Below, piece after piece: positions 847 to 24,041 of a stretch of 49,450 nucleotides of DNA. The notes below the pieces were generated by a model. It ran no database searches and had not been told where the DNA came from. It saw nothing but the letters and a program-made list of their open reading frames with translations. Source of the DNA: Flammeovirgaceae bacterium BBD 1991-12. Its GTDB lineage: Bacteria; Bacteroidota; Bacteroidia; Cytophagales; Cyclobacteriaceae. The stretch spans positions 35,747-85,196 of the forward strand of contig LYSV01000047.1 in assembly GCA_001657315.1 (NCBI GenBank), read 5' to 3'. Every line of letters begins with the position of its first letter. Position 1 is the stretch's first letter. Both the position numbers and the translations under genes were made by a program.

Positions 847-858
847 GTGCTCGTGCAC
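847..858 (+). promoter_or_regulatory. LacI-type operator A upstream of the nagB fusion
   Basis: GTGCTCGTGCAC matches the palindrome GTGnnCGnnCAC with the central CG step that LacI-family proteins bend. It is followed by TTTAT, as are the copies at 13991 and 24030. It lies about 60 bases before the preferred ATG at 914. I see no second copy 21 bp away here, unlike the other two promoters. The likely binding protein is the LacI-family regulator encoded at 2923. Confidence 0.7.
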
Positions 859-913
859 TTTATTAAAAAAAGCTTGTTCTTTCCCTTTAAATTTTATTTC
901 TTTGATGCAGATC

Positions 914-2827
914 ATGGCTATAGTAGATTACCCTTCCACCAAATTTGAAAAGCTGAAAGTAACCGTATTCGGTACCGGCAGCGAAGCCTCCATAGAAATT
1001 GCAAGGGAGATTGCAGAACTTATTCAACTCAGACAAAAGAAAGGGGGGAAAGCCGTTCTCGGGCTTGCCACCGGAGCTACCCCGATAGGCGTCTACAAGG
1101 AACTGGTCAGGCTCCACCGGGAAGAGGGGCTAAGCTTTGAAAACGTGATCACATTCAATCTGGATGAATACTACCCCATTGGTCCGGAGTCCGTTCAAAG
1201 CTATGACTTTTACATGCGTCATCATCTCTTCAATCACATCGATATACCAAAGGAAAATATCCATATTCCACAAGGTGATATCCCTGAGGGTCTTGTACAT
1301 GATCATTGTATGGAGTACGAGCGAAAAATTGATGATGCGGGTGGGATTGACATTCAGATACTTGGCATAGGCCGTACGGGACACATTGGTTTTAATGAGC
1401 CCGGATCACCTCATAATTCGGAAACAAGGCTTGTTAAGCTTGACCCTGTGACCATCAGTGATGCCAAGAGGGAGTTTATAAAAGAAGAGTTTGTACCACG
1501 CAGGGCCATGACGATGGGTATAAGAAGCATATTCAAGGCCCGGGATATTTACCTGCTGGCGTGGGGTGAGCGAAAGGCAGAGGTAGTTCGCAAGGCTGTT
1601 GAGGGTGAGATCACGGATGAAATACCTGCTTCCTTTCTGCAAAATCATCCCAATGTACATATTGTGCTCGACAAGTGGGCCAGCGAAGAGCTGAGCAGGT
1701 TTAAAACCCCATGGCTTACCGGACTATGTGAGTGGGACAACAAGCTTACAAAAAGGGCTGTGATATGGTTGAGTCAGAAGCTGAAAAAGCCTGTCTTAAA
1801 ACTGACTGACGAAGACTATAAGGGAAATGAACTGGGGGAGCTGATCCCCTATCCGGAGGCCTCTCAGGAGCTCAATGTCCGTATCTTTAATGAACTTCAG
1901 CATACCATTACGGGCTGGCCGGGAGGTAAACCCGGAACAGATGACACGCACCGACCGGAAAGAGCCCTGCCTGCTCAAAAACGCGTTATTATCTTTAGCC
2001 CACACCCTGATGATGATGTGATCTCAATGGGCGGTACCCTGCTCAAACTGGTAGAACAGGGACATGAGGTTCATCTGGCCTATCAAACTTCAGGAAACAA
2101 TGCTGTCTTTGATGATGATGCCCTGCGATTTGCACAATTCGCCAGTGACATTGCTGAGGCGCTATCACCTGATGACATCGAGTTAAGCAAACTGTATAAA
2201 TCCATAGATGAGGTCCTTGTAGCCAAAAAACAGGGTGAGCATGATCCACAGATCATAAAGCTGATCAAGGGGCTGATCCGAAAGGGCGAGGCCTCCGCTG
2301 CCGGCAGATACTGTGGTGTTGCTGAAAAGAACATCCATTTTCTGAATCTACCCTTTTACAATATACCTGAGCTGGATGAACGGGCGATCTCCGATAAGGA
2401 TATTGATGTCATCCTCTCATTGATCAGGGAAATAAAACCTCACCAGATCTTCGCGGCCGGTGATCTTAAAGACCCACATGGAACACATAAGCTCTGTCTG
2501 GATACCATATTCTCCGCGCTGAATAAAGCAAAATCGGATGAATGGACCAAAGACTGCTATCTCTGGCTTTACCGGGGCGCATGGCATGAATGGAAAGCTG
2601 AAGAGATCGAAATGGCCGTCCCCCTCAGCCCGATTGATGTCATGAAAAAAAGAAGGGCTATATTCAAACATCAGTCCCAGAAAGACACCCCCGTTTTTCC
2701 GGGGGAAGACAAACGCGAGTTCTGGCAAAGGGCAGAAGACAGGAACCAACAGACTGCCCGGATCTATGACCTATTGGGCCTTACCGAATACGAAGGGATG
2801 GAAGCCTTTGTCCGCTATCACTTTTAA
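914..2827 (+). CDS. nagB: Glucosamine-6-phosphate deaminase fused to a PIG-L/LmbE deacetylase
   Basis: A 637-residue cytoplasmic protein with two enzymes in tandem. The N-terminal half (about residues 10-280) is a NagB isomerase/deaminase, with the catalytic FNLDEYYP loop and the GIGRTGHIGFNEPGS phosphate/active-site motif. It converts glucosamine-6-phosphate to fructose-6-phosphate and ammonia. The C-terminal part (about 355-600) is a PIG-L/LmbE-type zinc deacetylase, with PHPDDD and a later DPHGTH motif. The fusion could therefore deacetylate and then deaminate GlcNAc-6-P; that coupling is an inference. An in-frame TTG at 845 would start inside operator A, so ATG 914 (or 905) is the better start. 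The gene is followed after 95 bases (to ATG 2923) by the LacI regulator and is probably co-transcribed with it. Confidence 0.88.
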   Translation: MAIVDYPSTKFEKLKVTVFGTGSEASIEIAREIAELIQLRQKKGGKAVLGLATGATPIGVYKELVRLHREEGLSFENVITFNLDEYYPIGPESVQSYDFYMRHHLFNHIDIPKENIHIPQGDIPEGLVHDHCMEYERKIDDAGGIDIQILGIGRTGHIGFNEPGSPHNSETRLVKLDPVTISDAKREFIKEEFVPRRAMTMGIRSIFKARDIYLLAWGERKAEVVRKAVEGEITDEIPASFLQNHPNVHIVLDKWASEELSRFKTPWLTGLCEWDNKLTKRAVIWLSQKLKKPVLKLTDEDYKGNELGELIPYPEASQELNVRIFNELQHTITGWPGGKPGTDDTHRPERALPAQKRVIIFSPHPDDDVISMGGTLLKLVEQGHEVHLAYQTSGNNAVFDDDALRFAQFASDIAEALSPDDIELSKLYKSIDEVLVAKKQGEHDPQIIKLIKGLIRKGEASAAGRYCGVAEKNIHFLNLPFYNIPELDERAISDKDIDVILSLIREIKPHQIFAAGDLKDPHGTHKLCLDTIFSALNKAKSDEWTKDCYLWLYRGAWHEWKAEEIEMAVPLSPIDVMKKRRAIFKHQSQKDTPVFPGEDKREFWQRAEDRNQQTARIYDLLGLTEYEGMEAFVRYHF

Positions 2828-2922
2828 CACCCTACCGGATACCGGCTCTGTACAGGATATCAATCCGCAAGACGGATCATTTAAAATTGTTTATTGATCA
2901 TCTGGAAGTTACTTTTACATTT

Positions 2923-3945
2923 ATGGAAGAAAGGAATTACACAATCAGGGATATTTCAAGATTGGCCAAAGTTTCCAGGGGTACAGTAGACCGTGTGATC
3001 CATAAAAGAGGAAAGGTATCTCCGGAGGCCATTGAAAAAGTGACCAAAGTACTCAAGGAGATCAACTACAAGCCAAACCTGCTTGCCCGATCTTTAAAAT
3101 CCCACAAACACAACCGAATAGCAGCTATCATACCGCATTACCAGGAAGACAGCTACTGGCAAAAATGTGTCAATGGTATTAAAAAGGGTGAGGAGGAATT
3201 CAAAGCGTTTGGAGGCACCATCAATTACTATACCTATGACAAAACAAAGGCTGATTACGAACAGGCATTTGACAAGGTACTGAAGGATAAACCCGACGCT
3301 GTGCTGGTAGCCCCTATCTACTACCGGGAATCACTGCCACTCTTCAGGAAACTCGAAGATCTTGATATCCCCTATGTGCTGATCAATACCCCTATTGAAA
3401 ATGCCAACTATAAAAGTTTTATCGGACAGGATTACTGGAAGAGTGGCAGGGTGGCAGCACAGTTAATGGACCTGCTCCTACCGGGAAAGGGGGATGTCCT
3501 GATCATACACGTAGAAGAGGATTTTGAAAATTCTACTCACCTTCACCGCAAGGAAGAGGGCTTCCGGAGCTATTTTACAGAAAAGAATAAAAACAGGACC
3601 ATACATACCTTTACACTACACGGTGAACCTCCGGATTTTTCTCCCCTTCAGGACGCCATAGCCAGTGCCCGGGGTATGTTTATCACAACATCAAAGGCTT
3701 CCGTACTGCGAAGATACGTGGAGAATGAGGCCATCAGAATTGTAGGGTATGATCTCACTCCGGAAAATATTGAATTCCTGAAGAACGGCAAGATCGATAT
3801 GCTCATCCACCAGAATCCACATCAGCAGGCTTATGATGGGATCTCTTTTCTTTCAGAGTTATTACTATATAAAAAGGAGCCTGAGTACCGCAAGCTCCTA
3901 CCAATTGATATCGTGACCTCCGAGAATGTAGACTGCTACCTGTAA
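2923..3945 (+). CDS. LacI-family transcriptional regulator
   Basis: A 340-residue DNA-binding regulator. The N-terminal LacI helix-turn-helix (about residues 4-50) reads TIRDISRLAKVSRGTVDRVI, followed by the hinge helix with NLLARSLKS, whose Leu inserts at a central CG step. From about residue 60 to the end it has a periplasmic-binding-protein-like sugar sensor. ATG 2923 places the HTH at the N-terminus as in the family; a TTG at 2887 would only add an unrelated leader. It sits directly after nagB and close to three promoters carrying GTGnnCGnnCAC palindromes, so I infer that it controls the whole amino-sugar/glycan locus. The effector is unknown; an amino-sugar or its phosphate would fit. 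Confidence 0.85.
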   Translation: MEERNYTIRDISRLAKVSRGTVDRVIHKRGKVSPEAIEKVTKVLKEINYKPNLLARSLKSHKHNRIAAIIPHYQEDSYWQKCVNGIKKGEEEFKAFGGTINYYTYDKTKADYEQAFDKVLKDKPDAVLVAPIYYRESLPLFRKLEDLDIPYVLINTPIENANYKSFIGQDYWKSGRVAAQLMDLLLPGKGDVLIIHVEEDFENSTHLHRKEEGFRSYFTEKNKNRTIHTFTLHGEPPDFSPLQDAIASARGMFITTSKASVLRRYVENEAIRIVGYDLTPENIEFLKNGKIDMLIHQNPHQQAYDGISFLSELLLYKKEPEYRKLLPIDIVTSENVDCYL

Positions 3946-3963
3946 CAAGGCTAACCTAATCAA

Positions 3964-5961
3964 TCAAAGATCCGGATAGATCGCTTTGGCCGGATAAAGA
4001 TTTTTGAACAGCTCCTTCCTTGCCTTCAGGCCTTCAAAGAAGAAATATACTTCCCCCTGGATGTTGTTATCCCTGTGTGTATAGATCATATCCGCCAGGA
4101 ATTCCTCGTTAGGCACATAGCTACCTACCTGAAGTAGTATCCCCGGGAAAAAGCGTTCCAGTTTGTCATTATTGATCAGTACCAGCTGGCTCTCCAGAAG
4201 CCCGCGATAAACACCGATCCCCTGATCATCCCGGCGATATAACTGTGGACTGGCGGAGTCAGTATAGCCATTGTTAAGCCAGGTGGTATAATCCTGCAGG
4301 TACTCCCTGCGCCCGAAGGTCATAGGGTGGGGACCGTGCATGACCAGGATCTGCGGATCCAGCGCCTTCATCTCATCATATAACGTCTGCGAATAATCAT
4401 TGATCTTATCCACACGCCACTGTATCCAGTTGTCTTCTCTGAAATCTGCGGGCGGTTCGGCGCCACCATGTTCAGTTTTATACAAATTCACGGTATAATC
4501 GTCATATCCCGCTTCTACGGGCATCGCCGGCAACCGGTCATCTCCCTGCACCCCATAGATATCGTAATCCTGCACCACCTCCTTGAACAGATCCGTCATG
4601 AACTGCTGTACATCCGGAAGCAGACCGTTCATCCAGTAGAAGTTGTTTTTTTCTACAATATTGCCCTGATTGTCGCGTGCTGCCCAATCAGGGTTGTCGT
4701 TCAGCAGCTGACCCGGCTGGCCAAACTGAGAGGCAAAACCATATTCAAACCACGCCACCACCTTGATGTCCGTACCCTTTTCTGTATTGACCGCATTGGT
4801 TTCCTCAATCAACTCCTGTAAAGGATCACGTCCCACATTGCCATACACAGGATCGATCCGGGTACCTGTGACAGCTTCTGCCACATCACTGTCAAAAAGT
4901 GTTAACCCTTTATTCCAAACCACCATAAAGATGGTATTCATGTTCAATTCTTCCACCAGTTCCACCGCAGCCCGGATATCCGCACGGGAATTGAGCGCAT
5001 TGCTGGCTACATTGGTCAGCCAAACTCCTCGAACGCCCTTGTCCTGTGGGTAGAATGCCACTTCTACGCTGTATTCGCGAACATCTCCGTTTTCCGCCGT
5101 TACAGTGATCTTTCCACCCGTGGAAAGATCGATCTTCTGAGCCACCGGTGGGTCAGCTGAAGCCTCATCCGAGAGGATGTAATCGAAGGAAAGCGCTGTC
5201 AGATCGGTACCAAACGGAACGTGAAAGGCAACATTGTTGGTACTTTGATCGATAGCTCCAACGGCCTTATTCTCCGATATACGGATATGCCTCAATTCAT
5301 TTTCATTACTCTTTCCCACACTTACCACCACAGTGTAGAGACGCTTGGTACCATCCTCAGCCGTAACTGTATAGATCTGAGGGGTGCTGAAATCAGCCGG
5401 CTGACCTGAAGGTGGATCAATACCTGCCTTGTCCGAGATACCGATTGTCGGTGTCAGGGATTTCAACGAGCTGCCAAAGGGAACCTCTGCCGTGACCACA
5501 GCATTGGCCTCATCAATGGCAGCGGTGACATCGGGCTCAAATTCTTCAAATACAAAAGACAGAATTTCCTTACCAGATGAAGCTTCTTCATTCACCACTA
5601 CGGTATATGCCTTTTTTGTACCATCTTCCGCTGTCACGGTGTAGATCACGCTGTTAGTGAAATCCTGAGGCTGGCCTGAGGGCGGGTCAACCGTGGCTTT
5701 TTCAGAAATTGTAATGGCCGGCACCAGGGTGGTGAGCGAGGTTCCTGAGGGAACAGTGGCTGTGATGAGTGTATTTTCATTGTCTATAGAGGCCGCCACA
5801 TCGGGTTCCAGTTCATCAAACACAAAAGATATGATATCCTTTTCGGATGATCTGGTTGTATCATCATCATCTCCACAACCTGTTGCCATCAGGCCCAGTC
5901 CTGCAAGTAAAACAATTATTCCTGACAGCTTCATTGACTTATTTATCGACTTTAGTAGCAT
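3964..5961 (-). CDS. GHL10 (DUF187)-type glycoside hydrolase lipoprotein with three N-terminal Ig-like domains
   Basis: About 665 residues. A signal peptide ends in a lipobox (LMATGC) followed by a run of Asp, typical of surface lipoproteins in this phylum. Three tandem DUF5018-like beta domains (each about 80 residues, with the signature PPSGQ..DF and YTVTAEDGT) cover roughly residues 40-290. The C-terminal part is a GHL10/YngK-like TIM barrel starting RGVWLTNVASN, with VAWFEYGFA and QGDDRLPAM motifs. It would bind and hydrolyse glycan outside the cell; the bond cut is not known. It is the last gene of the susC operon and shares its catalytic fold with the protein at 14350. ATG 5961 and ATG 5934 are both possible starts; the longer TTG form is less likely. 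It converges with the LacI gene. Confidence 0.8.
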   Translation of the reverse strand: MLLKSINKSMKLSGIIVLLAGLGLMATGCGDDDDTTRSSEKDIISFVFDELEPDVAASIDNENTLITATVPSGTSLTTLVPAITISEKATVDPPSGQPQDFTNSVIYTVTAEDGTKKAYTVVVNEEASSGKEILSFVFEEFEPDVTAAIDEANAVVTAEVPFGSSLKSLTPTIGISDKAGIDPPSGQPADFSTPQIYTVTAEDGTKRLYTVVVSVGKSNENELRHIRISENKAVGAIDQSTNNVAFHVPFGTDLTALSFDYILSDEASADPPVAQKIDLSTGGKITVTAENGDVREYSVEVAFYPQDKGVRGVWLTNVASNALNSRADIRAAVELVEELNMNTIFMVVWNKGLTLFDSDVAEAVTGTRIDPVYGNVGRDPLQELIEETNAVNTEKGTDIKVVAWFEYGFASQFGQPGQLLNDNPDWAARDNQGNIVEKNNFYWMNGLLPDVQQFMTDLFKEVVQDYDIYGVQGDDRLPAMPVEAGYDDYTVNLYKTEHGGAEPPADFREDNWIQWRVDKINDYSQTLYDEMKALDPQILVMHGPHPMTFGRREYLQDYTTWLNNGYTDSASPQLYRRDDQGIGVYRGLLESQLVLINNDKLERFFPGILLQVGSYVPNEEFLADMIYTHRDNNIQGEVYFFFEGLKARKELFKNLYPAKAIYPDL

Positions 5962-5971
5962 ATCCAACAAC

Positions 5972-7351
5972 TCAGGTTGAAATAAATTTATATTTGACCA
6001 GCGCCTGATTAGTGATCAGGCAGTAAATATCCACTTCGGCTTCCGAGATCTTGTTAACCGTGATCCCACCACTGGCATCAATGTTATCCACGGCTCCGGT
6101 CATAAAGTTTTCCGTGAAAAATATATCATCGGTAGTTACATTGGCCAACCCATTGGTGATGTCCATTACCATAAAACGACTCTCAACATTGCTGCGCGGA
6201 AATACTGCTGCTATAAACGTTCTGGATCCCAGTGTGAACATTTCGAACTGATTGGTAAATCCATCGAAGAGTGTACGGGTGAGGTTGGGAAGGCGATCGA
6301 TAAACGCTCCGTCCTTATCAACGTGTGTAAATTCGATCTCATTGGCGCAAACGTAAAGATCCTCCTCACCGGTTGTACCCAAAGCATATACATGGGGACG
6401 CGAACCGAATTTGCCCAGCGTAGGAAGCCCTCCTATGCTAATGATATCTGGCGTAGGATTAAGTACTCCCCCGGTCACTTTCCATCGGAAAACTGTATTT
6501 CCGCGGTCGGTAGGTGGCAGGAACTTACGGCCAAAAGCGGTATAAATGACTGCCTCTCCTTCAATATCCCCTATTACTGTGAAGCTATCACCCATACGGT
6601 ATTCGGTATTGGGAAACTCAAGGTAAACACTGGGACTGGCATTGTTGTCATCCCAAAGGTATATTTTAAAAGGTGCATTGGCGCCGTTTTCGGATTCTAC
6701 CGCATTGCACGCCAGTATTTTACCATCACTGCTTACCTCTACGTCGGAGATCTTTACCGCTCCCCCTTCAATGATGTTGTCCGGGTCGGGCAAAGTACCC
6801 AGATCGGCCCCGTTATCAGGATCGATCAATCGGACCTTGTCATTATTATTGGCTACGTAAAGCATGCCATTGCCATAACCCAGCCCTCTCTCACCATTTT
6901 CAGTAAACCATGATGGAATGTTGCCTTTTCCCTCCCGTTGTTCCCATATAGGGTCTGAAAGGGATAGCCCCAGAGGCACAAAGTTTGTTTCAACTGTCCA
7001 TACCTTGGATACTCCGCTCTGAGAAGTAACGGTATATTGCACAGGATTATCCGGATCGGAAAAGTCCCGTGCCTGATCCGTGGCGGGGTCAATGGTAGAA
7101 TTTTTTGATATTTCAATAAGCGGTGTAATACCGGAAATGTCGGTACCTTCTGTCACATCTATTTTAATGATCTTTGTGGCCTTATTGATCAGTCCCACAC
7201 GAGGTGGTGCCAGATCAGGGAACTCGAACCGCTCGATATCACTTTTCCTGAAAATGAGCTCTCCTTCCTGAAAGTCATCATCTTCACAGGAAACCACGGC
7301 GATTCCCATTGTCAGTAACATCAACAGAAAGTATTTGATCCGGTTAGCCAT
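5972..7351 (-). CDS. SusD-linked surface lipoprotein with DUF5018-like and DUF4623-like domains
   Basis: A 459-residue secreted lipoprotein: the signal peptide ends at VVSC before an acidic EDDDF stretch. One Ig-like DUF5018-type domain (about 35-125, with DPATDQARDFSDP and YTVTSQSG) precedes a beta-propeller-like region. The latter contains LGYGNGMLYVANNNDKVRL and matches what I recognise as DUF4623 proteins of Bacteroidota polysaccharide loci. No catalytic motif is visible, so a glycan-binding role is the best guess. It is a paralogue of the next gene upstream in the operon (7426-9108), with which it shares the motifs P.W and WFT.N..R near the start of the C-terminal region. Confidence 0.65.
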   Translation of the reverse strand: MANRIKYFLLMLLTMGIAVVSCEDDDFQEGELIFRKSDIERFEFPDLAPPRVGLINKATKIIKIDVTEGTDISGITPLIEISKNSTIDPATDQARDFSDPDNPVQYTVTSQSGVSKVWTVETNFVPLGLSLSDPIWEQREGKGNIPSWFTENGERGLGYGNGMLYVANNNDKVRLIDPDNGADLGTLPDPDNIIEGGAVKISDVEVSSDGKILACNAVESENGANAPFKIYLWDDNNASPSVYLEFPNTEYRMGDSFTVIGDIEGEAVIYTAFGRKFLPPTDRGNTVFRWKVTGGVLNPTPDIISIGGLPTLGKFGSRPHVYALGTTGEEDLYVCANEIEFTHVDKDGAFIDRLPNLTRTLFDGFTNQFEMFTLGSRTFIAAVFPRSNVESRFMVMDITNGLANVTTDDIFFTENFMTGAVDNIDASGGITVNKISEAEVDIYCLITNQALVKYKFIST

Positions 7352-7425
7352 AATTAAATGTGATTGTATTTTTCTTCACCATAGGAGGGGATGCCTGTGA
7401 CACCCCCTCCAAACAACCTTATGAA

Positions 7426-9108
7426 TCATCCTTTGCCTATATCCACGGTGATATCGTAAACACCCACACCAAAATTGGTGACTAAACCCACGAGTGTAAC
7501 AGTTTTACCATCCTGGGACACGACAAAATCCACACCGCCGGTTCCATTGAAATTGGTATCAATACCTCCGTTCACTGTGAAGACTACCTCATAATAATCA
7601 CTTTCCGAGGCATTTGCCAGTCCGTCAGTAACATCAATAAGGATCAACCTGCCTACGGTGGCATTATTGGTTGCAGTGAATTCAGTACTCATCCCGGCGA
7701 TCACTTTGCGGCCATCTACCTCAAAGTAGCCCAGATCCAATACAAAGCTTCCCAACCATGGTTTGGCTGTGATCAGATCTGCATTCAGCTCATCTTTTTT
7801 GGTACCATCCTGGCCGTACACGGCTATTGCCCTGCCTGTACCTGTAATGAGGATATCTGAATTGGCATCACTTGAAAGTGGCCATACATCGGGGGCATTG
7901 CCCATAACTTCGTCTCCTTCCAGATCTATAATGGCAGGATTGGTACCGGATCCGGTAAATGTGCCACCACTGATCTCAAATTTCAATACTTTGTCATTCT
8001 GTGTTCCAAATCCACCACCAGGAACATAAACCAACGCATTTCCTGTAACATCCCCTATGACGGTCAGGTTTTCTCCCAACCTAAGTCCTGCCGCGCCTAC
8101 ATAGCCGAACAAAAGCTCCTGATCAGAATCCTTATCAGCCCACTTATATACATTCCATGGGTTAGCGTCGTCTGTCACCCGCAGATTTGAGGCCACAATC
8201 ACACCATTATCATCCGTGTGCGTACCCAACAGGAAGAGATTTCCTGAGGCAAAATTCTGCTTTCCGTTAATAAACTCAAGGTCAGGATTTTCTGCATCAC
8301 CCGCTACACCTGCCGATACATCTGAGCCATCAGCAGCACTCATCACCCTTATCTTGTCATTGTTGTTATGTACATAAACATAATCCCCATGAATAGCAAC
8401 ATCACGATCGTTATTGGCAGTGAACCATTCAGGCAACCCTTCATTAGCCAATGTTTTTTCCCATTTAGGCGTAATCACCAGGGTGAAGGTCGGTACTGTC
8501 ACTGTTACGGTCCAAACTTTTTGAGTAGTACCGTCTTCTGCAGTTACCGTGTATTCCACAGGGTTTGTAAAATCCTGCTCAACACCTGAAGCAGGAGCGA
8601 TGTTGGCACTTGCCGAAATCTCAATAGTCGGTGTAAGGGCTGACTTATCCGTACCGTCCGGCATATCTACCACAACAGTTCCGGCTCCGGAATCTATGGT
8701 ACCGCTCACTCCGTCTATAGTGAAACCCGTGATCTCGGCTTCGGTGCTCAATACGGGAGTGTTGACAGTTACGGTCCATGTTTTTTGGGTCGTTCCGTCT
8801 TCCGCCGTTACGGTATAGTCCACGGGATTGGTAAAATCCTGAGCTACGCCCGATGCAGGAGCTACGGAGGCCCCGGTAGAAACGGCTATGGCAGGGGTAA
8901 GGCTGGTTACATCGGTCACTTCGGTAAAGTCCACAGTTATAGTCCCTGCGCTTGCATTGATGGTACCGTTTACGCTATTGATCACGAAACTGGTGATCTC
9001 TGCCGCGTTGCTCAATGTTGGACCGTCATCATCATCGCCACAGGAGCTTATGAAAAAGAGGCTCATCAACGCTGCGATGAACATGACATTCCTGGTAATA
9101 GATTTCAT
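7426..9108 (-). CDS. SusD-linked surface lipoprotein with two DUF5018-like domains and a DUF4623-like region
   Basis: A 560-residue lipoprotein with signal peptide and lipobox (FFISSC) followed by GDDDDG. It has two very similar Ig-like repeats (about residues 35-115 and 120-205), each ending in DFTNPV.YTVTAEDGTTQK. The remaining 350 residues form a propeller-like region beginning P.WEKTLANEGLPEWFTANN. This region is homologous to that of the neighbouring protein at 5972. It lies 56 bases after susD in the same operon. I infer a surface glycan-binding protein that helps SusCD; no catalytic site is recognisable. Confidence 0.65.
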   Translation of the reverse strand: MKSITRNVMFIAALMSLFFISSCGDDDDGPTLSNAAEITSFVINSVNGTINASAGTITVDFTEVTDVTSLTPAIAVSTGASVAPASGVAQDFTNPVDYTVTAEDGTTQKTWTVTVNTPVLSTEAEITGFTIDGVSGTIDSGAGTVVVDMPDGTDKSALTPTIEISASANIAPASGVEQDFTNPVEYTVTAEDGTTQKVWTVTVTVPTFTLVITPKWEKTLANEGLPEWFTANNDRDVAIHGDYVYVHNNNDKIRVMSAADGSDVSAGVAGDAENPDLEFINGKQNFASGNLFLLGTHTDDNGVIVASNLRVTDDANPWNVYKWADKDSDQELLFGYVGAAGLRLGENLTVIGDVTGNALVYVPGGGFGTQNDKVLKFEISGGTFTGSGTNPAIIDLEGDEVMGNAPDVWPLSSDANSDILITGTGRAIAVYGQDGTKKDELNADLITAKPWLGSFVLDLGYFEVDGRKVIAGMSTEFTATNNATVGRLILIDVTDGLANASESDYYEVVFTVNGGIDTNFNGTGGVDFVVSQDGKTVTLVGLVTNFGVGVYDITVDIGKG

Positions 9109-9164
9109 AGTCTGGTGAATTTTAAGTTAAATTTTCAGATTTGTTCAGCTGACCGATCATCAGT

Positions 9165-13966: not shown

Positions 13967-14005
13967 AAAGTGCACGAACACATTTAAAAAGTGTTCGTGC
14001 ACTTT
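13967..14005. promoter_or_regulatory. Double LacI-type operator B upstream of susC
   Basis: A perfect 15-bp inverted repeat (AAAGTGCACGAACAC at 13967-13981 and its complement at 13991-14005) is separated by 9 AT-rich bases. Each arm is also a LacI-type palindrome of the form GTGnnCGnnCAC, at 13970-13981 and 13991-14002. The centres are 21 bp (two helical turns) apart, which would place two dimers on the same face. On the minus strand, TTTG (13962-13965) directly follows, in a position that could serve as a -33 element for susC. Confidence 0.75.
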
Positions 14006-15561: not shown

Positions 15562-15580
15562 TTACAAGTAAACATGGCTA

Positions 15581-17548
15581 TTACTCCTGACTAATGGCTT
15601 CATGATCAACTGTGATCATTTCAAGCGGCAATTGATTGAAAGGGTCGTAGATCTTATCTATCAAATACGCCAGTTCTTTTCTCACCAAAGGCTCATCAAG
15701 CTGGTCAGTATTTGCATCCGACCATGGTCTGGTCCAGCCCTGCTCCCTGAAGTAGCTCATCGCCTGCCTGAGTATTTCATCATCAAGGCCCATATAATCT
15801 GGCGCCTCCTTCATAGCCTGTGGCCGGTTTATGGAGGACCATAAATATTTAATGGTCCATGACCTGCTCAGCATTGGATCATTCTTTGTTTCTTCAGACT
15901 TCAGTCTACCATCAGTGGCTATGTGAATAGCGCTGGCGAACTCCGCTCCGGACACCATGCTGTCAGGATAGATCCAGGTCTGATTGGCCCATTGATAGGG
16001 CACACCATGTCCTTTGAAGATACCTGTTGCCCCCATCTTCTGAAGAGGCTCGAAATGCCAGTCCGACGGTTGAGTATCTATAAAAGGCAACAGCCAGCAC
16101 CCCGCCTCCAGAAGCTGGCTTTGTAATTCTCTTACGGGAACTTCTCGTGGCACTATATTCTTTCTTGCTGCCAGCGCTGCGGCTGTGCCTGCCGCCTGGC
16201 CGATCAGGATCACACATGGCTGGAGCCGGGTAGAGCCATTGGCGGCATGGCTCACACTAATGTTCTTATCTGCCACCAGCAGTCCATCGATACTTTCAGG
16301 CACCAGGCATTCGTAGGGGACGGAAAAAGACGGTATCGCAGGAAAGATCTCTTTAGGCGACCTTTCATTCTGATCATGATGATGGTCGAGGGGATAATCA
16401 CCCACAGCCACAGCTGTTTTATAATAAGGCCTTGTTGTATCGGCATACGGATCCTGCAGATCGGATACGGTGAGAAAAACCACTCCCTGAAGCCTTCTGC
16501 TTTCACGGTGATAAGGAATGAAAGGAAGATTGTCATCTGTGGGGTACTCGTCCTCTGCGATGCCCAAATGGCTATAGCCACCTTCGGTTTGCAGAAAGTA
16601 AACACAGTTCAGGGTATGTTCCTTTGCCTTTTCATAAACCCTGAGCCGTTCTTCCCGGGTCATTTCGAGAACGTTGGCATAGAAATCATTGCCTTTGTTT
16701 GGCCAGTTGATCATGTATTTATTGCCTGGCAAACGTCCGTATTCCAGCATTTTATCGCAAGAGACCATATTCTCGTCCGGCTGGCTGCACAGTTCGGCAC
16801 ACATACAGTCAAAAACCGACGGGTCATACGACTCAGGCCGCGGGATGGTTTTATCTGTGCCGTAATCCTTGAGAATAGCCACATAGGTTAGATCCTGAAC
16901 AAAGTCATTGACTTCTTCAGGAGCAAATTCCTCACCGGTCAGTGACTTTGGGTCCTGTCCGGCACGCCAGGCTGCCCCTGAAAGAGCTATGACATCCCCC
17001 AGCTCTGTAGCATCTATGACTACCTTTGCATTAACCCGCATCTGCTCACCAGCTTCATTTTGGAAAACGGCTCCTCTCACCGTACTACCTTCCCTGATCA
17101 CCTCTTCTACCCAATATCCATGCATCCTTCGAAGCGTTTTTTCCTGGTCAGCCATACGTTCCCATATTTGATTCCCCACATGTGGCTCAAACTGGGTATT
17201 GCTCACCCATCCGGTGGCTACAGCTTCCGGCCCTCCGTAGTGTTCATAAAGTTTTTGCCGGAATTCTCCCCAGATACCGGAGGGTAATCTGTGATTTCCA
17301 TCTGTAGCGCTCACCCCGGCGGTAGTGAGCATACCACCTAACCACGGAGTGGATTCCACCAGTATCACATCGGCATAGGACCGGGCTGCCTGGATGGCTG
17401 CCGCAGTACCCCCGGTTCCACCACCAATAACAAGCACATCGGTTTCGATAGCTTCCAACGTCGGGCTATTGTTCGAACTACATCCTGAAAACAACGAAAC
17501 TGTTATCAAAAAGAGGATGAATAAGCATTTTGCAAGTATCTGGTTCAT
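15581..17548 (-). CDS. FAD-dependent oxidoreductase lipoprotein (PF12831-like)
   Basis: A 655-residue protein with signal peptide and lipobox (LFSGC), then a Rossmann FAD-binding motif VLVIGGGTGGTAAAIQAAR (about residues 38-56) and a second FAD contact region, VVIDATELGDVIALSG. A later segment has NGSTRLQPCVILIGQAAGTAAALA, typical of this oxidoreductase group in glycan loci. The last about 170 residues are a separate C-terminal region that I do not recognise. A lipid-anchored flavoprotein inside a glycosidase operon suggests oxidation of a sugar or removal of an unusual modification outside the cytoplasm; the substrate is unknown. Its ATG overlaps the GH92 stop (ATGA). Confidence 0.78.
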   Translation of the reverse strand: MNQILAKCLFILFLITVSLFSGCSSNNSPTLEAIETDVLVIGGGTGGTAAAIQAARSYADVILVESTPWLGGMLTTAGVSATDGNHRLPSGIWGEFRQKLYEHYGGPEAVATGWVSNTQFEPHVGNQIWERMADQEKTLRRMHGYWVEEVIREGSTVRGAVFQNEAGEQMRVNAKVVIDATELGDVIALSGAAWRAGQDPKSLTGEEFAPEEVNDFVQDLTYVAILKDYGTDKTIPRPESYDPSVFDCMCAELCSQPDENMVSCDKMLEYGRLPGNKYMINWPNKGNDFYANVLEMTREERLRVYEKAKEHTLNCVYFLQTEGGYSHLGIAEDEYPTDDNLPFIPYHRESRRLQGVVFLTVSDLQDPYADTTRPYYKTAVAVGDYPLDHHHDQNERSPKEIFPAIPSFSVPYECLVPESIDGLLVADKNISVSHAANGSTRLQPCVILIGQAAGTAAALAARKNIVPREVPVRELQSQLLEAGCWLLPFIDTQPSDWHFEPLQKMGATGIFKGHGVPYQWANQTWIYPDSMVSGAEFASAIHIATDGRLKSEETKNDPMLSRSWTIKYLWSSINRPQAMKEAPDYMGLDDEILRQAMSYFREQGWTRPWSDANTDQLDEPLVRKELAYLIDKIYDPFNQLPLEMITVDHEAISQE

Positions 17549-19785
17549 AAGGTATCGGGCTGACGGGTCATAATTATTTTCAATATTCCTTTGTCCCTGA
17601 TCCTGCTGTGGTCAAAAAATGGGGTCTCAAGGCGCTCTCCATCCAGATACATCTCCCGGATATACTTATTCTCCCTGCTGTTGTTTTCAGTCACTACGCA
17701 AAAAGTACCTCCTTCCGGCAGGTGGATGGTCACTTTGTCGAACAGGGGTCTTCCTATGGAGTAAACAGGCTCACCCGGACAGACCTGATAGAAACCGATC
17801 GCATTCAACACATACCATGCTGACATCTGTCCGCAATCCTCATTCCCCGGGATCCCGTCCGGTGCAGGATGATACAACGCATGCAGTATCGTATCGATCC
17901 GTTCCTGAGTTTTCCACGGCCGGCCAATGAAGTTATAGAGGTGAGCCACATGGTGGCTGGGCTCATTGCCATGGGCATACTGCCCGATGAGCCCGGAAAT
18001 ATCTTCAGGTATCTCTTCACCTTCCAACGTACTGCTGGCACTGAAAAGCTCATCCAGCTTGTCATTGAAGGCATCAGCACCACCGGCCATCCGTATCAGC
18101 TCCTTCACATCGTGAGGCACAAACCATGACCACTGCCACGCATTTCCTTCAATAAAATCGCCATAAAAGTCCGATTCGAAAGGGCTGAACGGCTCACGCC
18201 AGCTTTGATCTGCCAGTTTTCCCCGCATGAATCCCACGGACGGATCAAAGTAGTTTTTATAGAATTTCGAACGCTGCAAATATTTATCCCTTACCCGATC
18301 ATTTTGAGCAATGGTGGCTATACGTGAAATACACCAGTCATAATAGGCACACTCCAGGCCGTAGGAAACGGACCAGCTCACGGAATCTGCAGGGATGAAC
18401 CCCCGTTCTGCAATATATTTAAGATGTGGTGGCAACACCTGCTCACCTCTTGGTTCAACAAACTGAAACTGAGGATGAAAGGTGGAGCTAAAAACGGCTG
18501 CCTCCAGGGCCAGATCCATATTGAAGTTGGTCATACCCTTGCCTGCCGCATCTGCCATTAGTGCCACAGCGGGATAACCTACCATGGTACCGGTGTAATT
18601 GGATGCCAAAGGCCATTTAGGCAGCACTCCCCCTTCCTCATACTTACGAAGAAGGGAAGTGATCCAGCCTTCTGCCCTTTCCTTATTGATCATGGTCATC
18701 AGCGGGAACCACGCGCGAAAGGTATCCCAAAGTGAAAATACCGTATAGTTCGTAAAGCCCGGCTCTGCCTGATGGATCTGCTTGTCCATGCCTCTGTACT
18801 TTCCATCTGCATCCTGATGGAGCATAGGCGCGATCATGGTATGGTACAGCGCAGTATAAAAATTACGAAGTAGTGCCTCGTCACCTGATTCCGCTATGAT
18901 CGAGGACAGCTCCCGTTCCCATGCCGACTCTGCCTGTTGCCTGACCCTGTCAAAGTTCGTATCGGGCACTTCGTCCTCTAGATTTTTTCTGGCGCCCTCC
19001 AAACTTACGGGCGAAATACCCACATCTATAACCACCGTGGCAGAGGTATTTTCAGTAAACTCAAGCCATGCTCTCAGATCTTTGCCAGTTATATCTGTGC
19101 CTGCCAACCGGTCGATGCCATTTTTTAATGACAACACTTTAAAAGGCGACGAAAACCGAGCATAAAAATATACCTTGTGATCAAATGCCCAGCCCGAAGA
19201 TGTCCTTTCACCCTGTATGGTCTGATCATCCAAGAACTGTAAGGCACCACCAGTACTTTTGTGCCCCCAGTCAGACTGCAGCAAATGCCCAAGGTCTATC
19301 AGGAGCTTTTGCCCACTGGTGTCCGGAAATGTATATCTGTGTACCCCCACCCGTGGTGAAGCTGTAAGCTCAGCAGTAACATCATAGTTTTTTAAGTGTA
19401 CCCGATAGTAACCGGGTGAAGCGCTCTCAGTTTCCTTGTCAAAAAAAGCCAGCAGGCTGTCTCTCTCCTCTCCGGTGTAGGGCAGGAACAGGATATCCCC
19501 CATATCGCCAATACCTGTACCACTGAGATGAGTGTGTGAGAATCCGTGAATGGTAGAATCAGAATAGTGGTAGCCACTGGAAGCGTCCCAGCCGAAAAGC
19601 CGGGTATCAGGACTAAGCTGCACCATGCCGAAGGGAGTGGTGGCACCTGGGAAAGTATGTCCATGTCCCCCTGTCCCGATGAACGGGTCTACATACTGCA
19701 GTAAACTTATGTCTGACGGCTCCTGAGTGGCACAGGAGCATAGCGCAACGGCGCCAATGGTTATAAGGGCCCTGGGGATGTTCAT
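17545..19785 (-). CDS. GH92-family alpha-mannosidase lipoprotein
   Basis: A 746-residue exo-acting glycosidase of family GH92, whose members are Ca2+-dependent alpha-mannosidases. The family start YVDPFIGTGGHGHTFPGA appears about residue 31, after a signal peptide with a Cys-containing end (ALCSC). Later signatures are VFSLWDTFRAWFPL, the acid-bearing HGNEPSHHVAHLYN motif, and GNEDCGQMSAWYVLNAIGFY near the C-terminus. It would release mannose from N-glycan-like or mannan side chains. It overlaps both neighbours by 4 bases (ATGA at the AGE stop and at the FAD-protein start), so translation is tightly coupled within the operon. Confidence 0.92.
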   Translation of the reverse strand: MNIPRALITIGAVALCSCATQEPSDISLLQYVDPFIGTGGHGHTFPGATTPFGMVQLSPDTRLFGWDASSGYHYSDSTIHGFSHTHLSGTGIGDMGDILFLPYTGEERDSLLAFFDKETESASPGYYRVHLKNYDVTAELTASPRVGVHRYTFPDTSGQKLLIDLGHLLQSDWGHKSTGGALQFLDDQTIQGERTSSGWAFDHKVYFYARFSSPFKVLSLKNGIDRLAGTDITGKDLRAWLEFTENTSATVVIDVGISPVSLEGARKNLEDEVPDTNFDRVRQQAESAWERELSSIIAESGDEALLRNFYTALYHTMIAPMLHQDADGKYRGMDKQIHQAEPGFTNYTVFSLWDTFRAWFPLMTMINKERAEGWITSLLRKYEEGGVLPKWPLASNYTGTMVGYPAVALMADAAGKGMTNFNMDLALEAAVFSSTFHPQFQFVEPRGEQVLPPHLKYIAERGFIPADSVSWSVSYGLECAYYDWCISRIATIAQNDRVRDKYLQRSKFYKNYFDPSVGFMRGKLADQSWREPFSPFESDFYGDFIEGNAWQWSWFVPHDVKELIRMAGGADAFNDKLDELFSASSTLEGEEIPEDISGLIGQYAHGNEPSHHVAHLYNFIGRPWKTQERIDTILHALYHPAPDGIPGNEDCGQMSAWYVLNAIGFYQVCPGEPVYSIGRPLFDKVTIHLPEGGTFCVVTENNSRENKYIREMYLDGERLETPFFDHSRIRDKGILKIIMTRQPDTL

Positions 19786-20984
19786 GCTGTTTTGATCTGT
19801 TGTGCCGGCCGGGAGAGTTTGTCAAATTCCTGCATACACAGGTACAATGCACGAGGTACATGGAAGCACCCTTTCCATTTGCCTCCCTTTAGCTTCAGCA
19901 GTACCTGCCCCTGGCGATTGAGATATCCATACCATTCCATTCCTCCCTGTGGATCACGGAAATGCTCCCATGTATAGTCATGCAGTCTTTTGAACCATCT
20001 GACACAACGTGGATCTCCTGTAAGGCGGTAGGCTTTACTCAGCGCTACCAGGGCTTCCAGGTGAACCCACCATAGCTTCTGATCCCATTCGAGCTGCTGT
20101 GGAGGATGTCCATCCACGTCAAGGAAATAAAAAATACCATCAAATTCCTTATCCCAGCCATATTCAAGCAGGCTCAGACATATATTGACACACTTTTTCA
20201 GCAGGATAGAATCTCCTCTTCGCTCCGCCACGTCCATCAAAAACCAACAGGCCTCAATACCATGACCAGGATTGATCAAACGACCGTCAAACGAATCCGA
20301 CCTGGTGCCATCGTGAAGCACATTTTCGTAGATGATCCCCTTTTTGTCATCCAGGAAATCGTTCATGATCTCATCCAGGCAGTCATCAATCGTCTTTTCG
20401 ACGGTATCGGACGGAAGGACATTTTCCAGCTCCAGTGAAAGGTTACACAGGATCATGGGAAGTGCAAAGTTCTTCAGGGGCCGGTTTTCCGTGACCTGTT
20501 TGTTATATACACCTTTTGGATTGCCCTTTCGTTCAAGTATGCTTTGAAATATCTGCTTTGAACGATGGATAAACCATGATTTTTGCGCAGCCTGACCATA
20601 CCGGGCATAGGCCATTGCCATGAAACAGTCTGAAAAAATATTATAGGCCTTTACCAGTGGTTGCCCGTTCCTGTCGAGGGCAAAAAAACAATCCCCCTGC
20701 TCATCAAAGGCATACTTGTCCAGAAAATCAACACCCAGCCTGGCTATTTCCAGCCATTCAGACCTGGCTTCCAACTGAATAAAAAGCATGGAAAAGGTCC
20801 ATACCTGTCTGGCCTGAAGCCAGACGAACTTGTCCTGATCGAAAACGTTACCTTCAGCATCGAGGCAGGTGAAATATCCTCCTTTTTCCCAATCGGGTGA
20901 ATAATGCTGCCAAAAGGGAATGACATCCTCCAGCAATGACTTTCGATAGATATTCGTAAATCTTTTTACTTCTTCCGGATCCAT
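19782..20984 (-). CDS. AGE-family N-acylglucosamine 2-epimerase
   Basis: A 400-residue cytoplasmic (alpha/alpha)6-barrel enzyme. It has the AGE/renin-binding-protein signatures KFVWLQARQVWTFSML, LINPGHGIEACWFLMDVA and KLWWVHLEALVAL, and the terminal LKGGKWKGCFHVPRALYLC. The GHGIE and C-terminal CFHVPR motifs carry the catalytic His residues of the family. The closest known activity is reversible GlcNAc/ManNAc epimerisation; mannose or cellobiose epimerases share the fold, so the substrate is not certain. The start at ATG 20984 (MDPEEVKRF) is preferred, since the upstream extension overlaps the DUF4434 gene and has low-complexity basic residues. Placement with nagB-type catabolism supports an N-acetylhexosamine role. 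Confidence 0.85.
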   Translation of the reverse strand: MDPEEVKRFTNIYRKSLLEDVIPFWQHYSPDWEKGGYFTCLDAEGNVFDQDKFVWLQARQVWTFSMLFIQLEARSEWLEIARLGVDFLDKYAFDEQGDCFFALDRNGQPLVKAYNIFSDCFMAMAYARYGQAAQKSWFIHRSKQIFQSILERKGNPKGVYNKQVTENRPLKNFALPMILCNLSLELENVLPSDTVEKTIDDCLDEIMNDFLDDKKGIIYENVLHDGTRSDSFDGRLINPGHGIEACWFLMDVAERRGDSILLKKCVNICLSLLEYGWDKEFDGIFYFLDVDGHPPQQLEWDQKLWWVHLEALVALSKAYRLTGDPRCVRWFKRLHDYTWEHFRDPQGGMEWYGYLNRQGQVLLKLKGGKWKGCFHVPRALYLCMQEFDKLSRPAQQIKTA

Positions 20985-20994
20985 GATAAAACTA

Positions 20995-21984
20995 TTATTG
21001 CCGGAGTTTATTCCCCGATGGCGCCACTGCCGGACCATCTTCCCTGACCAGACCGAAATAGTCTTTGTACCGGTTGAACAGGTGACGCGCCTGAGCATAG
21101 CTGGAGTTGGGACTCATAAAATGTGAAAATTCAAAGGTGATAACCTTTTCTGCTCCGGCACTGGCTGCGGACTGTAGCTTCATCAGCATTTTATCCCATT
21201 TGATAGGCAAAAATTTGATGGGCATGTCACGGTCAAATGACTCGCAATTACTCCAGCACTGAACACCATGTTTAATGGCCAGTTTTTTATTGGTCTCCAT
21301 ATAGTTTTCAATATCATGAAAATCCACGTGACCATCCTGAAAGGCTACAATATCAATAAACTCGCTGGTCTTACCCAAAATCTCATCCCAGTCTCTTTCA
21401 TGCTGGCGGAGTGATATGGCTTCTGACTTGTAAAGCTCTTTATCTGCGGCATTTACAGCTTTTTCACCATCAATGTAAGGAGAGATCAACACGGAAAGAT
21501 CGGCCACCTCCTTGCAGTGCTTCCCCAACCGGGCGTACAGGTCTGCGATACCCGGCACATTGCGATTGATCTCATGAGAAATATACCATCCCTGAAATGC
21601 CGGTGAATTGCTGTAGCCCCTTCCGACTTCATCAATTATGGCCAGGTTGATGTCCACTTCCTTTTCATATTCGCCATTTACCCAGTACTTCCCGGAATCA
21701 TAAAGCCCGAAGTAAAACTTCATCTCATATTTCTCACTCAGGCGCAGGAACATTTCCAGGTAATTATTGTAAGGCTCAAAGCATCGTTCCCGGCCCATCA
21801 ACACTTTTGAAGGATAGGTGATCCATCTCCTGTAACCGCACCGGATCATGATCACCGTGTCTATGCCAATGGACTTCATTGCGCAGAAGTCAGCATCCCA
21901 CTCTTTTTCTCCCCAGTTCTGATGATTGATGTCATGACTTATCTCATCCAGAAAGGTACCCGTTATTTGAATTGCCTGACTCAT
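20995..21984 (-). CDS. DUF4434-family protein, probable TIM-barrel glycosidase-like
   Basis: A 329-residue protein without signal peptide or membrane segment. The start, GTFLDEISHDINHQNWGEKEW, and the following MKSIGIDTVIMIRCG match DUF4434 proteins, which are predicted (beta/alpha)8 barrels found beside carbohydrate genes. Further barrel-like motifs are GWYISHEINRN, IDIVAFQDGHVD and VITFEFSHFM, with acidic residues at strand ends. It probably acts in the cytoplasm on an imported sugar or glycoside; no reaction is established for it. It sits between the symporter (37-base gap) and the epimerase (10-base gap). Confidence 0.72.
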   Translation of the reverse strand: MSQAIQITGTFLDEISHDINHQNWGEKEWDADFCAMKSIGIDTVIMIRCGYRRWITYPSKVLMGRERCFEPYNNYLEMFLRLSEKYEMKFYFGLYDSGKYWVNGEYEKEVDINLAIIDEVGRGYSNSPAFQGWYISHEINRNVPGIADLYARLGKHCKEVADLSVLISPYIDGEKAVNAADKELYKSEAISLRQHERDWDEILGKTSEFIDIVAFQDGHVDFHDIENYMETNKKLAIKHGVQCWSNCESFDRDMPIKFLPIKWDKMLMKLQSAASAGAEKVITFEFSHFMSPNSSYAQARHLFNRYKDYFGLVREDGPAVAPSGNKLRQ

Positions 21985-22021
21985 AATCTAAAGATTTACA
22001 ACTCCTGGTTTTAAATAATTT

Positions 22022-23896
22022 TCATTCGTTCTCCAGCGTGTCCCACCAAAATATTTTCAGCAAAAGGCTGCATATGATCAGGATCAGTATGCTGCCTGCC
22101 AGGGAAAAATACTCCCCGATCACCAGGTACATGGGAATTATAACCATGCTCATCTGCCACGTCATGCCAATGATCACATTGAACACGTCACGGCCAAACT
22201 GTTGATTACCGATAAACGAGGGGTTTTCCTCTACTACAAGGTCATGAACAGGCTTCCAAAAGCCCCATGGCCGTACTTTTTTGTAAAAATTCTTCAATGT
22301 TTCCATATCATCAGGAGGTGTCAGCAATGTACCCAGTAAACATCCCGCCAAAGCGACCAGGAGAATGATAGGAAAGGTATACAGATCAAACACCCCAGGC
22401 ATGAGCTTTGGAACGGTCATCGACCCTACCAGACCGGCAAGCATGCCCCAGAAATAACCGTAGCCGTTGAATCTCCACCAGATCCATTTCAGTACGTTTG
22501 ATGCAGTATAACCGCCATAAAGAGAAGCCACTATCCACTTGGTCAATGAATCGATCGAATCGATGAAAAAGCCAACAAAAACTCCTATGACCACGATCAC
22601 GAAAGAAGCCAGGTAGCTCATCCAGATATATCTTTTGGGAGGGGCATCGGGACGGATATACTTTTTGTAGATATCATTAACGAGGTAGGCCGGCGCTGCA
22701 TTTACAAAGGCAGAAAACGTAGACATGAACGCCGCCACAAGGCCTGCCAGAATAAGCCCCATGGCGCCGGCAGGCAGGAAATTGTTGATCACATACGGCA
22801 GTATGATCTCAAAATCAATGGACTCTCCCATTTCAAGCAGTTGCGGGCGAAGGTAAACCAGCGCCAGTACGGTGAGCCCAACGATCAGCATGTAACGTGG
22901 TATATAAAGAACAGCTATGGTGAACCCACTCATTTTGGCAGCTTCCTTAGGAGATTTGGTGGCCAGTATCCGCTGCATGTCATAGCTGGGAACCGGTCCT
23001 GCCAGTGAGGCCAGTATGCCCTTGAACACCATGAGCATAACCACCAGCCCGAAAAAATTGAAATCATCATTGGCTATGTAGCGGTTTACAGAAGGCAGTA
23101 TCTGTGACCAGTCCATGTCCAGCTTCCAGTCAAACCAAAGATCCTTCCAGCCATCGGGGACAGCTCCCTCCAGATCACCAGGAGATACTCTGTCCAGCAC
23201 CACATATCCAATGACCACGCTGGCTATGGTCATCAACAAAAACTGAAGCAACTCGGTACCCACCACACTATACATACCCCCTTTAACCACATAGAGCGTA
23301 GTAATGAAAATTATGATCAGCGCATAGGTCCGTTCGGAAGAAACCTCTGCATTGGCAATATGAAAGGACAGGTCATATGGAAAAAAGGTGACGGCAAACT
23401 TACCTATTCCTTCAAATCCATAGGCAATGAATCCGATAACACTGATCACCGCAAAGGCCACAACCACAATGTGGGACAGTTCTTTTCCACTGTTATTGCC
23501 AAAACGGGTGGAGAGCCATTCGGCCCCCGTCATCGCTCCCGACCTCCGTAGCCATATGGCCAGAAAAACCATAATAAAGACCTGGTTCCAAACCGGCCAC
23601 AGCCATGGGATCCAGGCGCTTTTAAGGCCATAGACAAAGCAGATGGCCACCGTCCACATCACTCCGGAGATGTCAAACATCCCTGAAGCGTTGGAAATGC
23701 CCAATATATACCATGGGATCTTGTTACCACCCAGAAAATAGGCCTGCAGGTTTCCCGAAGCGCGTTTGGAGATATAGAACCCAATGGCTACCGACAACAC
23801 GAGGTAGCCAATGACAATGGAGATATCTAATGGTTGTAACTTCACAATACAATTGCAGGCCTTACTACTCCCTGAATCGGAAGATCCAATTGGCAC
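22022..23896 (-). CDS. Sodium:solute symporter (SSS family), likely sugar transporter
   Basis: A 624-residue inner-membrane protein with about 13-14 hydrophobic segments and the SSS hallmarks. These are the LDISIVIGYLVLSVAIGFY first helix, YFLGGNKIPWYILGIS, GAEWLSTRFG, and the Na+-binding region LAGLVAAFMSTFSAFVNAAPAYLVNDIY. It uses the sodium gradient to import a sugar or sugar derivative. It is the first gene of the six-gene catabolic operon and lies downstream of operator C. An in-frame GTG at 23845 would remove a polar 17-residue leader and fits the family N-terminus better than ATG 23896; the true start is open. Confidence 0.88.
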   Translation of the reverse strand: MPIGSSDSGSSKACNCIVKLQPLDISIVIGYLVLSVAIGFYISKRASGNLQAYFLGGNKIPWYILGISNASGMFDISGVMWTVAICFVYGLKSAWIPWLWPVWNQVFIMVFLAIWLRRSGAMTGAEWLSTRFGNNSGKELSHIVVVAFAVISVIGFIAYGFEGIGKFAVTFFPYDLSFHIANAEVSSERTYALIIIFITTLYVVKGGMYSVVGTELLQFLLMTIASVVIGYVVLDRVSPGDLEGAVPDGWKDLWFDWKLDMDWSQILPSVNRYIANDDFNFFGLVVMLMVFKGILASLAGPVPSYDMQRILATKSPKEAAKMSGFTIAVLYIPRYMLIVGLTVLALVYLRPQLLEMGESIDFEIILPYVINNFLPAGAMGLILAGLVAAFMSTFSAFVNAAPAYLVNDIYKKYIRPDAPPKRYIWMSYLASFVIVVIGVFVGFFIDSIDSLTKWIVASLYGGYTASNVLKWIWWRFNGYGYFWGMLAGLVGSMTVPKLMPGVFDLYTFPIILLVALAGCLLGTLLTPPDDMETLKNFYKKVRPWGFWKPVHDLVVEENPSFIGNQQFGRDVFNVIIGMTWQMSMVIIPMYLVIGEYFSLAGSILILIICSLLLKIFWWDTLENE

Positions 23897-23996
23897 GCCC
23901 TAATTTATGACACTTCTCTTCACCCCGGTGCAAACAGCGTGATATACCTCAGGTTGAATTAATGAACAGCGATCCTAAAAAGCAAAGCCTGTGGAA

Positions 23997-24004
23997 CAAA
24001 TATA
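23997..24004 (-). promoter_or_regulatory. Bacteroidota -7 promoter box for the symporter operon
   Basis: The minus strand reads TATATTTG, an exact match to the TAnnTTTG box used by the primary sigma factor of this phylum. It lies just 4 bases downstream of operator C1 (24009-24020), so a bound LacI dimer would cover the -33 region. That geometry suggests repression. Confidence 0.5.
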
Positions 24005-24008
24005 GTAC

Positions 24009-24041
24009 GTGCTCGAACAATATAAAAATTTGCTCGAGCAC
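24009..24041. promoter_or_regulatory. Double LacI-type operator C upstream of the symporter operon
   Basis: Two sites related to GTGnnCGnnCAC: GTGCTCGAACAA at 24009-24020 and TTGCTCGAGCAC at 24030-24041. Each differs from the full palindrome at one end base. Their CG centres are 21 bp apart, exactly as in operator B, and an AT-rich spacer separates them. The right copy is followed by TTTTAT, like operators A and B. The bases from 24048 to 24246 hold no recognisable gene. Confidence 0.7.

Follow-up and report, generated by a model that had tools for sequence, protein, structure and literature searches.

A candidate LacI-family regulon with paired operators 21 bp apart at an amino-sugar and glycan-import locus of Flammeovirgaceae bacterium BBD 1991-12

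The 49,450-nucleotide stretch of the Flammeovirgaceae bacterium BBD 1991-12 genome analysed here (contig LYSV01000047.1, positions 35,747 to 85,196; hereafter the window) carries three transcription units, comprising 13 genes with intergenic gaps of less than 80 bp, in whose promoters lie palindromes of the kind bound by LacI-family regulators. The first unit, on the forward strand, opens with a nagB-PIG-L fusion gene encoding a glucosamine-6-phosphate deaminase-like protein (914..2827; Pfam, with NCBIfam NF002557 and TIGR00502 above cut-off) and continues with the gene of a LacI-family regulator (2887..3945), which is probably co-transcribed with it. The second unit, on the reverse strand, has five genes: a SusC-type TonB-dependent transporter (10673..13852; Pfam and NCBIfam), followed, each by Pfam assignment, by a SusD-like protein (9165..10673), two DUF5018 proteins (7426..9108 and 5972..7351) and, last, a protein that joins DUF5018 to a GHL10 glycoside hydrolase-like domain (3964..5970). 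The third unit, also on the reverse strand, has six genes: a sodium:solute symporter of the SSF family (22022..23896), a DUF4434 protein (20995..21984), an N-acylglucosamine 2-epimerase (19782..21098; NCBIfam NF052547, 613.1 bits against a cut-off of 600), an enzyme of glycoside hydrolase family 92 (GH92), the alpha-mannosidase family (17545..19785; domain searches and NCBIfam), a flavin adenine dinucleotide (FAD)-dependent oxidoreductase (15581..17548; PF12831) and a GHL10 glycoside hydrolase-like protein (14350..15561; Pfam), the symporter, DUF4434 and oxidoreductase genes being assigned by domain search. The best solved relatives of the epimerase, 6f04 and 2gz6, are both named as N-acetylglucosamine (GlcNAc) 2-epimerases; its coordinates are those of the frame from the first start, and since that frame overlaps the DUF4434 gene the true start probably lies further in.

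A reading made earlier from the letters of this DNA only (the sequence-only reading) had placed five CG-centred palindromes in the three promoters, and motif search bears this out with three exact copies of GTGNNCGNNCAC (847-858, 13970-13981 and 13991-14002; 0.43 expected in the window, and three or more found in 2 of 100 shuffles) and two one-base variants. The single site before nagB, GTGCTCGTGCAC at 847..858, stands 55 bp 5' of the start at 914. Before susC the proximal operator (13970..13981) is accompanied by a distal one (13991..14002, read on the reverse strand), and before the symporter gene the proximal GTGCTCGAACAA (24009..24020) is accompanied by the distal TTGCTCGAGCAC (24030..24041), each with one end base changed. 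Start-to-start, and hence centre-to-centre, the distance is 21 bp in both pairs, exactly as had been claimed. A further claim did not survive: the right-hand copies were said to share a TTTnAT extension, while the bases that follow are TTTATT, TTTATC and TTTTAT, of which the last, at 24030, is the only fit, and the extension is also absent at the nagB sites of the three closest relatives described below. Relaxing the pattern to TGNNCGNNCA, with one end or both required in full, gives seven matches in the window: the five sites described, all of them in the roughly 10% of the window that the gene list used leaves intergenic, and two in coding sequence. In 300 dinucleotide shuffles of the window the same pattern gave a mean of 3.3 matches, with seven or more in 15 shuffles, whereas any pair 12-60 bp apart occurred in four shuffles and two pairs in none; the number of single matches is therefore unremarkable and the two equal pairs are not. 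The window by itself suggests a regulon and does not prove one.

The closest relatives of the LacI protein, at 53-58% identity, are encoded in three genomes (G011, G012 and G073), in all of which the LacI gene has susC on one side and the FAD oxidoreductase gene on the other. Orthologues of nagB at 67-68% identity are found on the contig of LacI in G011 and G012 and on a separate small contig in G073. A scan of related genomes with a matrix had been proposed as a check on the sequence-only reading, and a matrix built from the five sites of the window, and from these only, was run on the relatives' stretches. The number and spacing of the sites recur at all three orthologous promoters: nagB is preceded by a single site in each relative, and so in all four genomes; susC by a pair at exactly 21 bp in each, with a weaker second arm, GTTCTCGTGCAC; and the symporter gene by a 21-bp pair in each. 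In G073 a 21-bp pair on a contig was predicted to precede the symporter before the genes were read, and the prediction was confirmed by an SSF gene (78%) followed by DUF4434 and epimerase genes. When the nagB promoters of the four genomes are aligned, the operator contains the longest invariant run. At 9.5 bits shuffled stretches give 0.5-2.5 matches each and the real counts lie near the shuffles in some stretches, so weak matches to the matrix carry no meaning; at 13.5 bits, a cut-off chosen after the 9.5-bit scan, seven stretches of the relatives give 15 matches where 0.5 are expected (40 shuffles each), and all 15 are the operator sites named above.

Two of these relatives, G011 and G012, also carry a second LacI paralogue, at 42-43% identity, near a second nagB (contigs C82 and C30, respectively), and in G011 an operator-like site lies between the two genes. 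The arrangement in the window, where the lone LacI follows nagB, gives the impression of a single regulator that has come to serve both functions. The genome to which the window belongs has three more nagB-PIG-L paralogues at 54-57% identity (contigs C90, C52 and C237); the one on C90, the only paralogue inspected, lacks such a site over the 1.5 kb upstream.

The regulator has the two domains of its family, an N-terminal helix-turn-helix (PF00356, residues 19-64, 51.3 bits against a cut-off of 27) and a periplasmic-binding-protein-like sensor domain (Peripla_BP_4, PF13407, residues 80-327, 106.3 bits against 35.1). Among solved structures the sensor domain is closest in sequence to 3gbv (E 2.9e-31, residues 69-351), a putative LacI-family regulator that shares this domain and is listed under a name without a function; we know of no DNA site for it. 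The recognition helix reads VSRGTVDR, and GTVDR occurs in the window's LacI only among the 11 LacI-type helices above the Pfam cut-off in the genome, the other ten reading TVSR (seven), TISR, AVSK and TVSM. The sequence-only reading had linked the sites to the LacI gene after nagB, and a better-linked LacI partner was looked for among these 11 helices and not found. Under the published rules for the family the operator has a CG centre, and arginine at amino-acid position AA-20 goes with G at nucleotide position NT-6 (PMC2978694). The operators of the window fit these rules, combining the helix GTVDR with an even palindrome, a CG centre, half-sites GTGYWC/GWRCAC (one end base changed in two) and G at NT-6. 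The variable operator bases are NT-3 and NT-2, and they vary with helix residue AA-15: the inner half-site is mostly TG or TA with valine, CT, TT or CA with arginine, and mostly TT with alanine, histidine and proline. G at NT-2 in at least one half-site is seen in 25 of 26 valine rows and in none of seven arginine rows, a pattern that follows clades.

In the wider family 81 of 390 genomes (this one included) have a match to LacI with an E value of 1e-70 or lower, and 81 loci, the window and 80 fetched for mostly the strongest matches, were compared. The palindrome lies within 400 bp upstream of LacI in 53 of the 81, against four for the reversed pattern, and its commonest form, GTGTGCGCACAC, accounts for 17 of the 53. 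Eighteen of the 24 LacI-positive genomes chosen for comparison contain this 12-mer and none of 24 LacI-negative ones does (reversed 12-mer, 3 of 48), the positive side not being independent, as those genomes were picked after many of their sites were known; the six LacI-positive genomes without it include G103, of the arginine type and with a different site. Of 26 close pairs (70 bp or less) in the 81 loci, 16 are at 21 bp, three at 31 and one at 22, the rest being overlapping registers or single cases, while two control patterns give five close pairs and none at 21 bp. When the whole family was scanned for pairs whose starts lie 12-42 bp from each other, 22 genomes yielded 24 pairs, of which 16 are at 21 bp, six at 31, one at 32 and one at 12; the reversed pattern has matches in two genomes. 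This set overlaps the former one, and its pattern requires T at one position and so misses the window's own pairs. Nineteen of the 22 pair-bearing genomes are LacI-positive, against 81 of 390 overall, and in the other three the pair stands beside a LacI homologue of 38-40% identity (G081, G186) or before nagB (G008). At class level a LacI match is found in seven of 247 genomes (this one again included), and three of seven loci examined at that level have a site about 100-120 bp before the match.

In 54 representative loci, 65 intergenic sites were located in 37 loci, near LacI, susC, nagB, GH92, SSF and DUF4434 genes and near 13 genes without a homologue in the window; nagB is a recurrent target gene there. 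Ten of the 13 were scanned and six are amino-sugar-like, namely two ROK kinases, two HGSNAT-like proteins, a GH20 enzyme and an APH-type kinase. The two HGSNAT-like (heparan-alpha-glucosaminide N-acetyltransferase) membrane-protein genes (L124:8222-9361 and L121:8212-9336) are divergent to LacI, behind GTGTGCGCACAC sites.

Several observations weigh against the assignment of these sites to the LacI regulator as a functional system. First, motif counts over the whole 8.6-Mb genome show no enrichment: the loose motif occurs 27 times against 71 for the reversed control, that is, below it, and the stricter KTGYWCGWRCAM, derived from these sites, 11 times against 11. The sequence-only reading would have been undermined by a motif scattered over the genome, and this is the case for the loose form; of the KTGYWCGWRCAM matches, five are the window sites and five of the other six lie inside open frames of more than 100 aa. 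With the counts at background the case rests on position and conservation, and no wider regulon is claimed. Second, 28 of the 81 LacI loci have no site within 400 bp upstream, including that of the window, where LacI follows nagB. Third, for four of the 24 pairs (G046, G085, G116 and G170) the stretch inspected contains no window-protein homologue, the 12-bp pair of G085 being probably due to chance, and four of the ten scanned site neighbours are not amino-sugar-like (GH3, glycosyltransferase, DUF3592 and endonuclease/phosphatase type), although some genes beside sites may be neighbours and not targets. Fourth, the link between AA-15 and the half-site is clade-wide, a tree-aware comparison leaving four independent pairs on well-supported branches, or three under another grouping. 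Fifth, a full -7-like element was recognised at the symporter unit only, where TATATTTG (23997..24004, reverse strand), which fits the Bacteroidota -7 consensus TAnnTTTG, lies 4 bp from the proximal operator; a scan for sigma-70 promoters and terminators near susC did not exceed chance (1 found, 1.1 and 1.0 expected).

Taken with these reservations, the comparisons, which supply the sites themselves, their spacing, their conservation and their link to LacI, make it highly probable that the LacI protein (2887-3945) binds GTGYWCGWRCAC and controls the three units, most likely as a repressor with an amino-sugar inducer. A local regulon of three units and 13 genes under the LacI next to nagB had been proposed from the sequence and gains support from the layout in the three relatives, the position of LacI inside the cluster, the upstream sites across the family, the occurrence of pairs mainly in LacI-bearing genomes and the lack of a second GTVDR helix among the LacI-type helices. 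A LacI dimer would bind the 12-bp palindrome GTGYWCGWRCAC at the nagB-lacI unit through one site and at the susCD and symporter units through two sites each, with centres 21 bp apart, and the site before nagB-lacI would include autoregulation of lacI. Without inducer LacI would most likely repress, a direction favoured by the position of the proximal symporter site, immediately ahead of the -7-like element. Where the sites are paired, two dimers would lie on the same face of the DNA, two helical turns from each other, and would probably aid each other's binding: distances of 21 bp and of 31-32 bp, which correspond to about two and about three turns, would preserve this alignment, and cooperative binding is inferred from these distances together with the precedent described for other LacI-family regulators (PMC4052901). 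As inducer, an amino sugar or its phosphate (GlcNAc, N-acetylmannosamine (ManNAc), GlcNAc-6-phosphate or glucosamine-6-phosphate) made from the imported glycan is the likeliest candidate, since the nagB and GlcNAc epimerase genes of the window and the amino-sugar-like neighbours of sites elsewhere point to such a signal; the effectors named by the sequence-only reading (glucosamine-6-phosphate, GlcNAc-6-phosphate, ManNAc and mannose) are plausible.

It is possible, if unlikely, that LacI acts mainly as an activator at these sites, or that it activates at the pairs and represses at the single site. In the sequences of G011 and G012 a possible -33 element directly follows the end of the susC pair, which is a place suited to activators. 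Two points speak for repression instead: the position of the proximal symporter site in the window, given above, and the fact that most characterised LacI-family members are repressors. It is improbable that a different protein binds the sites, whether another LacI or a regulator of the polysaccharide-utilisation type, such as a hybrid two-component system (HTCS) or the AraC-type gene at 29557-30483. The genome does encode the ten further LacI-type helices, and Bacteroides alpha-mannan units use HTCS regulators acting on direct repeats of two 16-bp sites 5 bp apart (PMC3878776). Those ten helices read differently, however, the GTVDR LacI is the gene that accompanies these sites across the family, and the sites are CG-centred inverted palindromes; a search of 27 window proteins found no HTCS, while elsewhere in the genome only LacI regulators were searched for.

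A third alternative, that the paired sites are the arms of an RNA hairpin serving as an attenuator or terminator and are not protein sites, was rejected as very improbable. The susC operators and their flanks (13967-14005) form a perfect 15-bp inverted repeat around a 9-base loop, the two operators being exact reverse complements, and for both window pairs a strong RNA fold is predicted (-26.6 and -18.4 kcal/mol, z -9.5 and -5.4). Folding of three pairs from the relatives shows no such exact reverse-complement match, and their stems are interrupted or lost: a joint stem with mismatches persists in the symporter pair of G011 and the susC pair of G012 (z -3.7 and -4.0), but the arms of the G012 symporter pair fold on themselves with no pairing between arms (z -2.4). 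Adjacent palindromes of one family yield such stems automatically, and nagB has only one site in each of the four genomes. That the palindromes arose by chance is scarcely credible, for although the whole-genome counts do not exceed their controls, two pairs never appeared in the 300 shuffles and the same sites recur at orthologous promoters.

With LacI as the regulator of the three units, the closest known systems are RafR of Enterobacteriales and ScrR of Burkholderiales, which have regulons of double sites only, 21-22 bp apart, a layout that the authors interpret as two dimers binding cooperatively, while LacI operator distances peak at 22 and 32 bp and also at 13 (PMC4052901). The likeness lies in even CG-centred palindromes and in spacing, 21-22 bp there and 21 bp here, with peaks here at 21 and 31-32 bp; within that range, 21 bp is the distance in both window pairs, in 16 of the 26 close pairs in the 81 loci and in 16 of the 24 family-wide pairs. 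The window differs in its Bacteroidota-type SusCD and GH92 targets, in a TVDR helix in place of the common TVSR, and in a nagB unit with a single site, so that the regulon is not one of double sites only. The word 'Bacteroidetes' does not occur in the main text of PMC4052901.

Within the Bacteroidota, the LacI regulators KdgR, UxaR, UxmR and UxuR of Bacteroides thetaiotaomicron are assigned to uronates in PMC3878776, which attributes the control of sialic acid and GlcNAc use to NanR (ROK), of mannosides to ManR (GntR) and of alpha-mannans to HTCS systems. Compared by description only, these LacI regulators resemble that of the window in controlling sugar use in Bacteroidota and differ in their uronate substrates. 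The window also differs from an HTCS-regulated polysaccharide unit, both in the absence of an HTCS from its scanned proteins and in the inverted form of its sites. A literature search, outside which lay subscription papers and regulon databases, found no report of such a regulon; tandem-operator control by LacI is already known in other bacteria, and this regulon appears to be new.

Two side observations concern DNA outside the three units described. Divergent from the symporter unit and just past its operators lie two adjoining genes of the Na/Pi-cotransporter family (24247-25980 and 26228-27817). In G170 a 21-bp operator pair (contig C137, locus L194, 3817-3849) has no window homologue among the genes beside it.

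A broader extension is offered tentatively, as one slightly more apt to fail than to hold: that the LacI subfamily with the GTVDR helix may, across the family and at class level, control amino-sugar and glycan-import units, often via phased double operators (21 or 31-32 bp) and beside HTCS, SusR and sigma/anti-sigma control, and that AA-15 (valine, arginine, alanine or glutamate) may retune NT-3 and NT-2, outside the published NT-5/NT-4 code. For the locus itself, a regulator, an operator and a target list for a glycan-use unit are now testable, and one regulator would tie the import of glycan across the outer membrane to the use of amino sugars in the cytoplasm through nagB and the GlcNAc epimerase. 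The natural variety in one helix residue and in operator layout (single, 21 bp or 31-32 bp) forms a ready set for studies of LacI recognition and cooperativity in this bacterial group.

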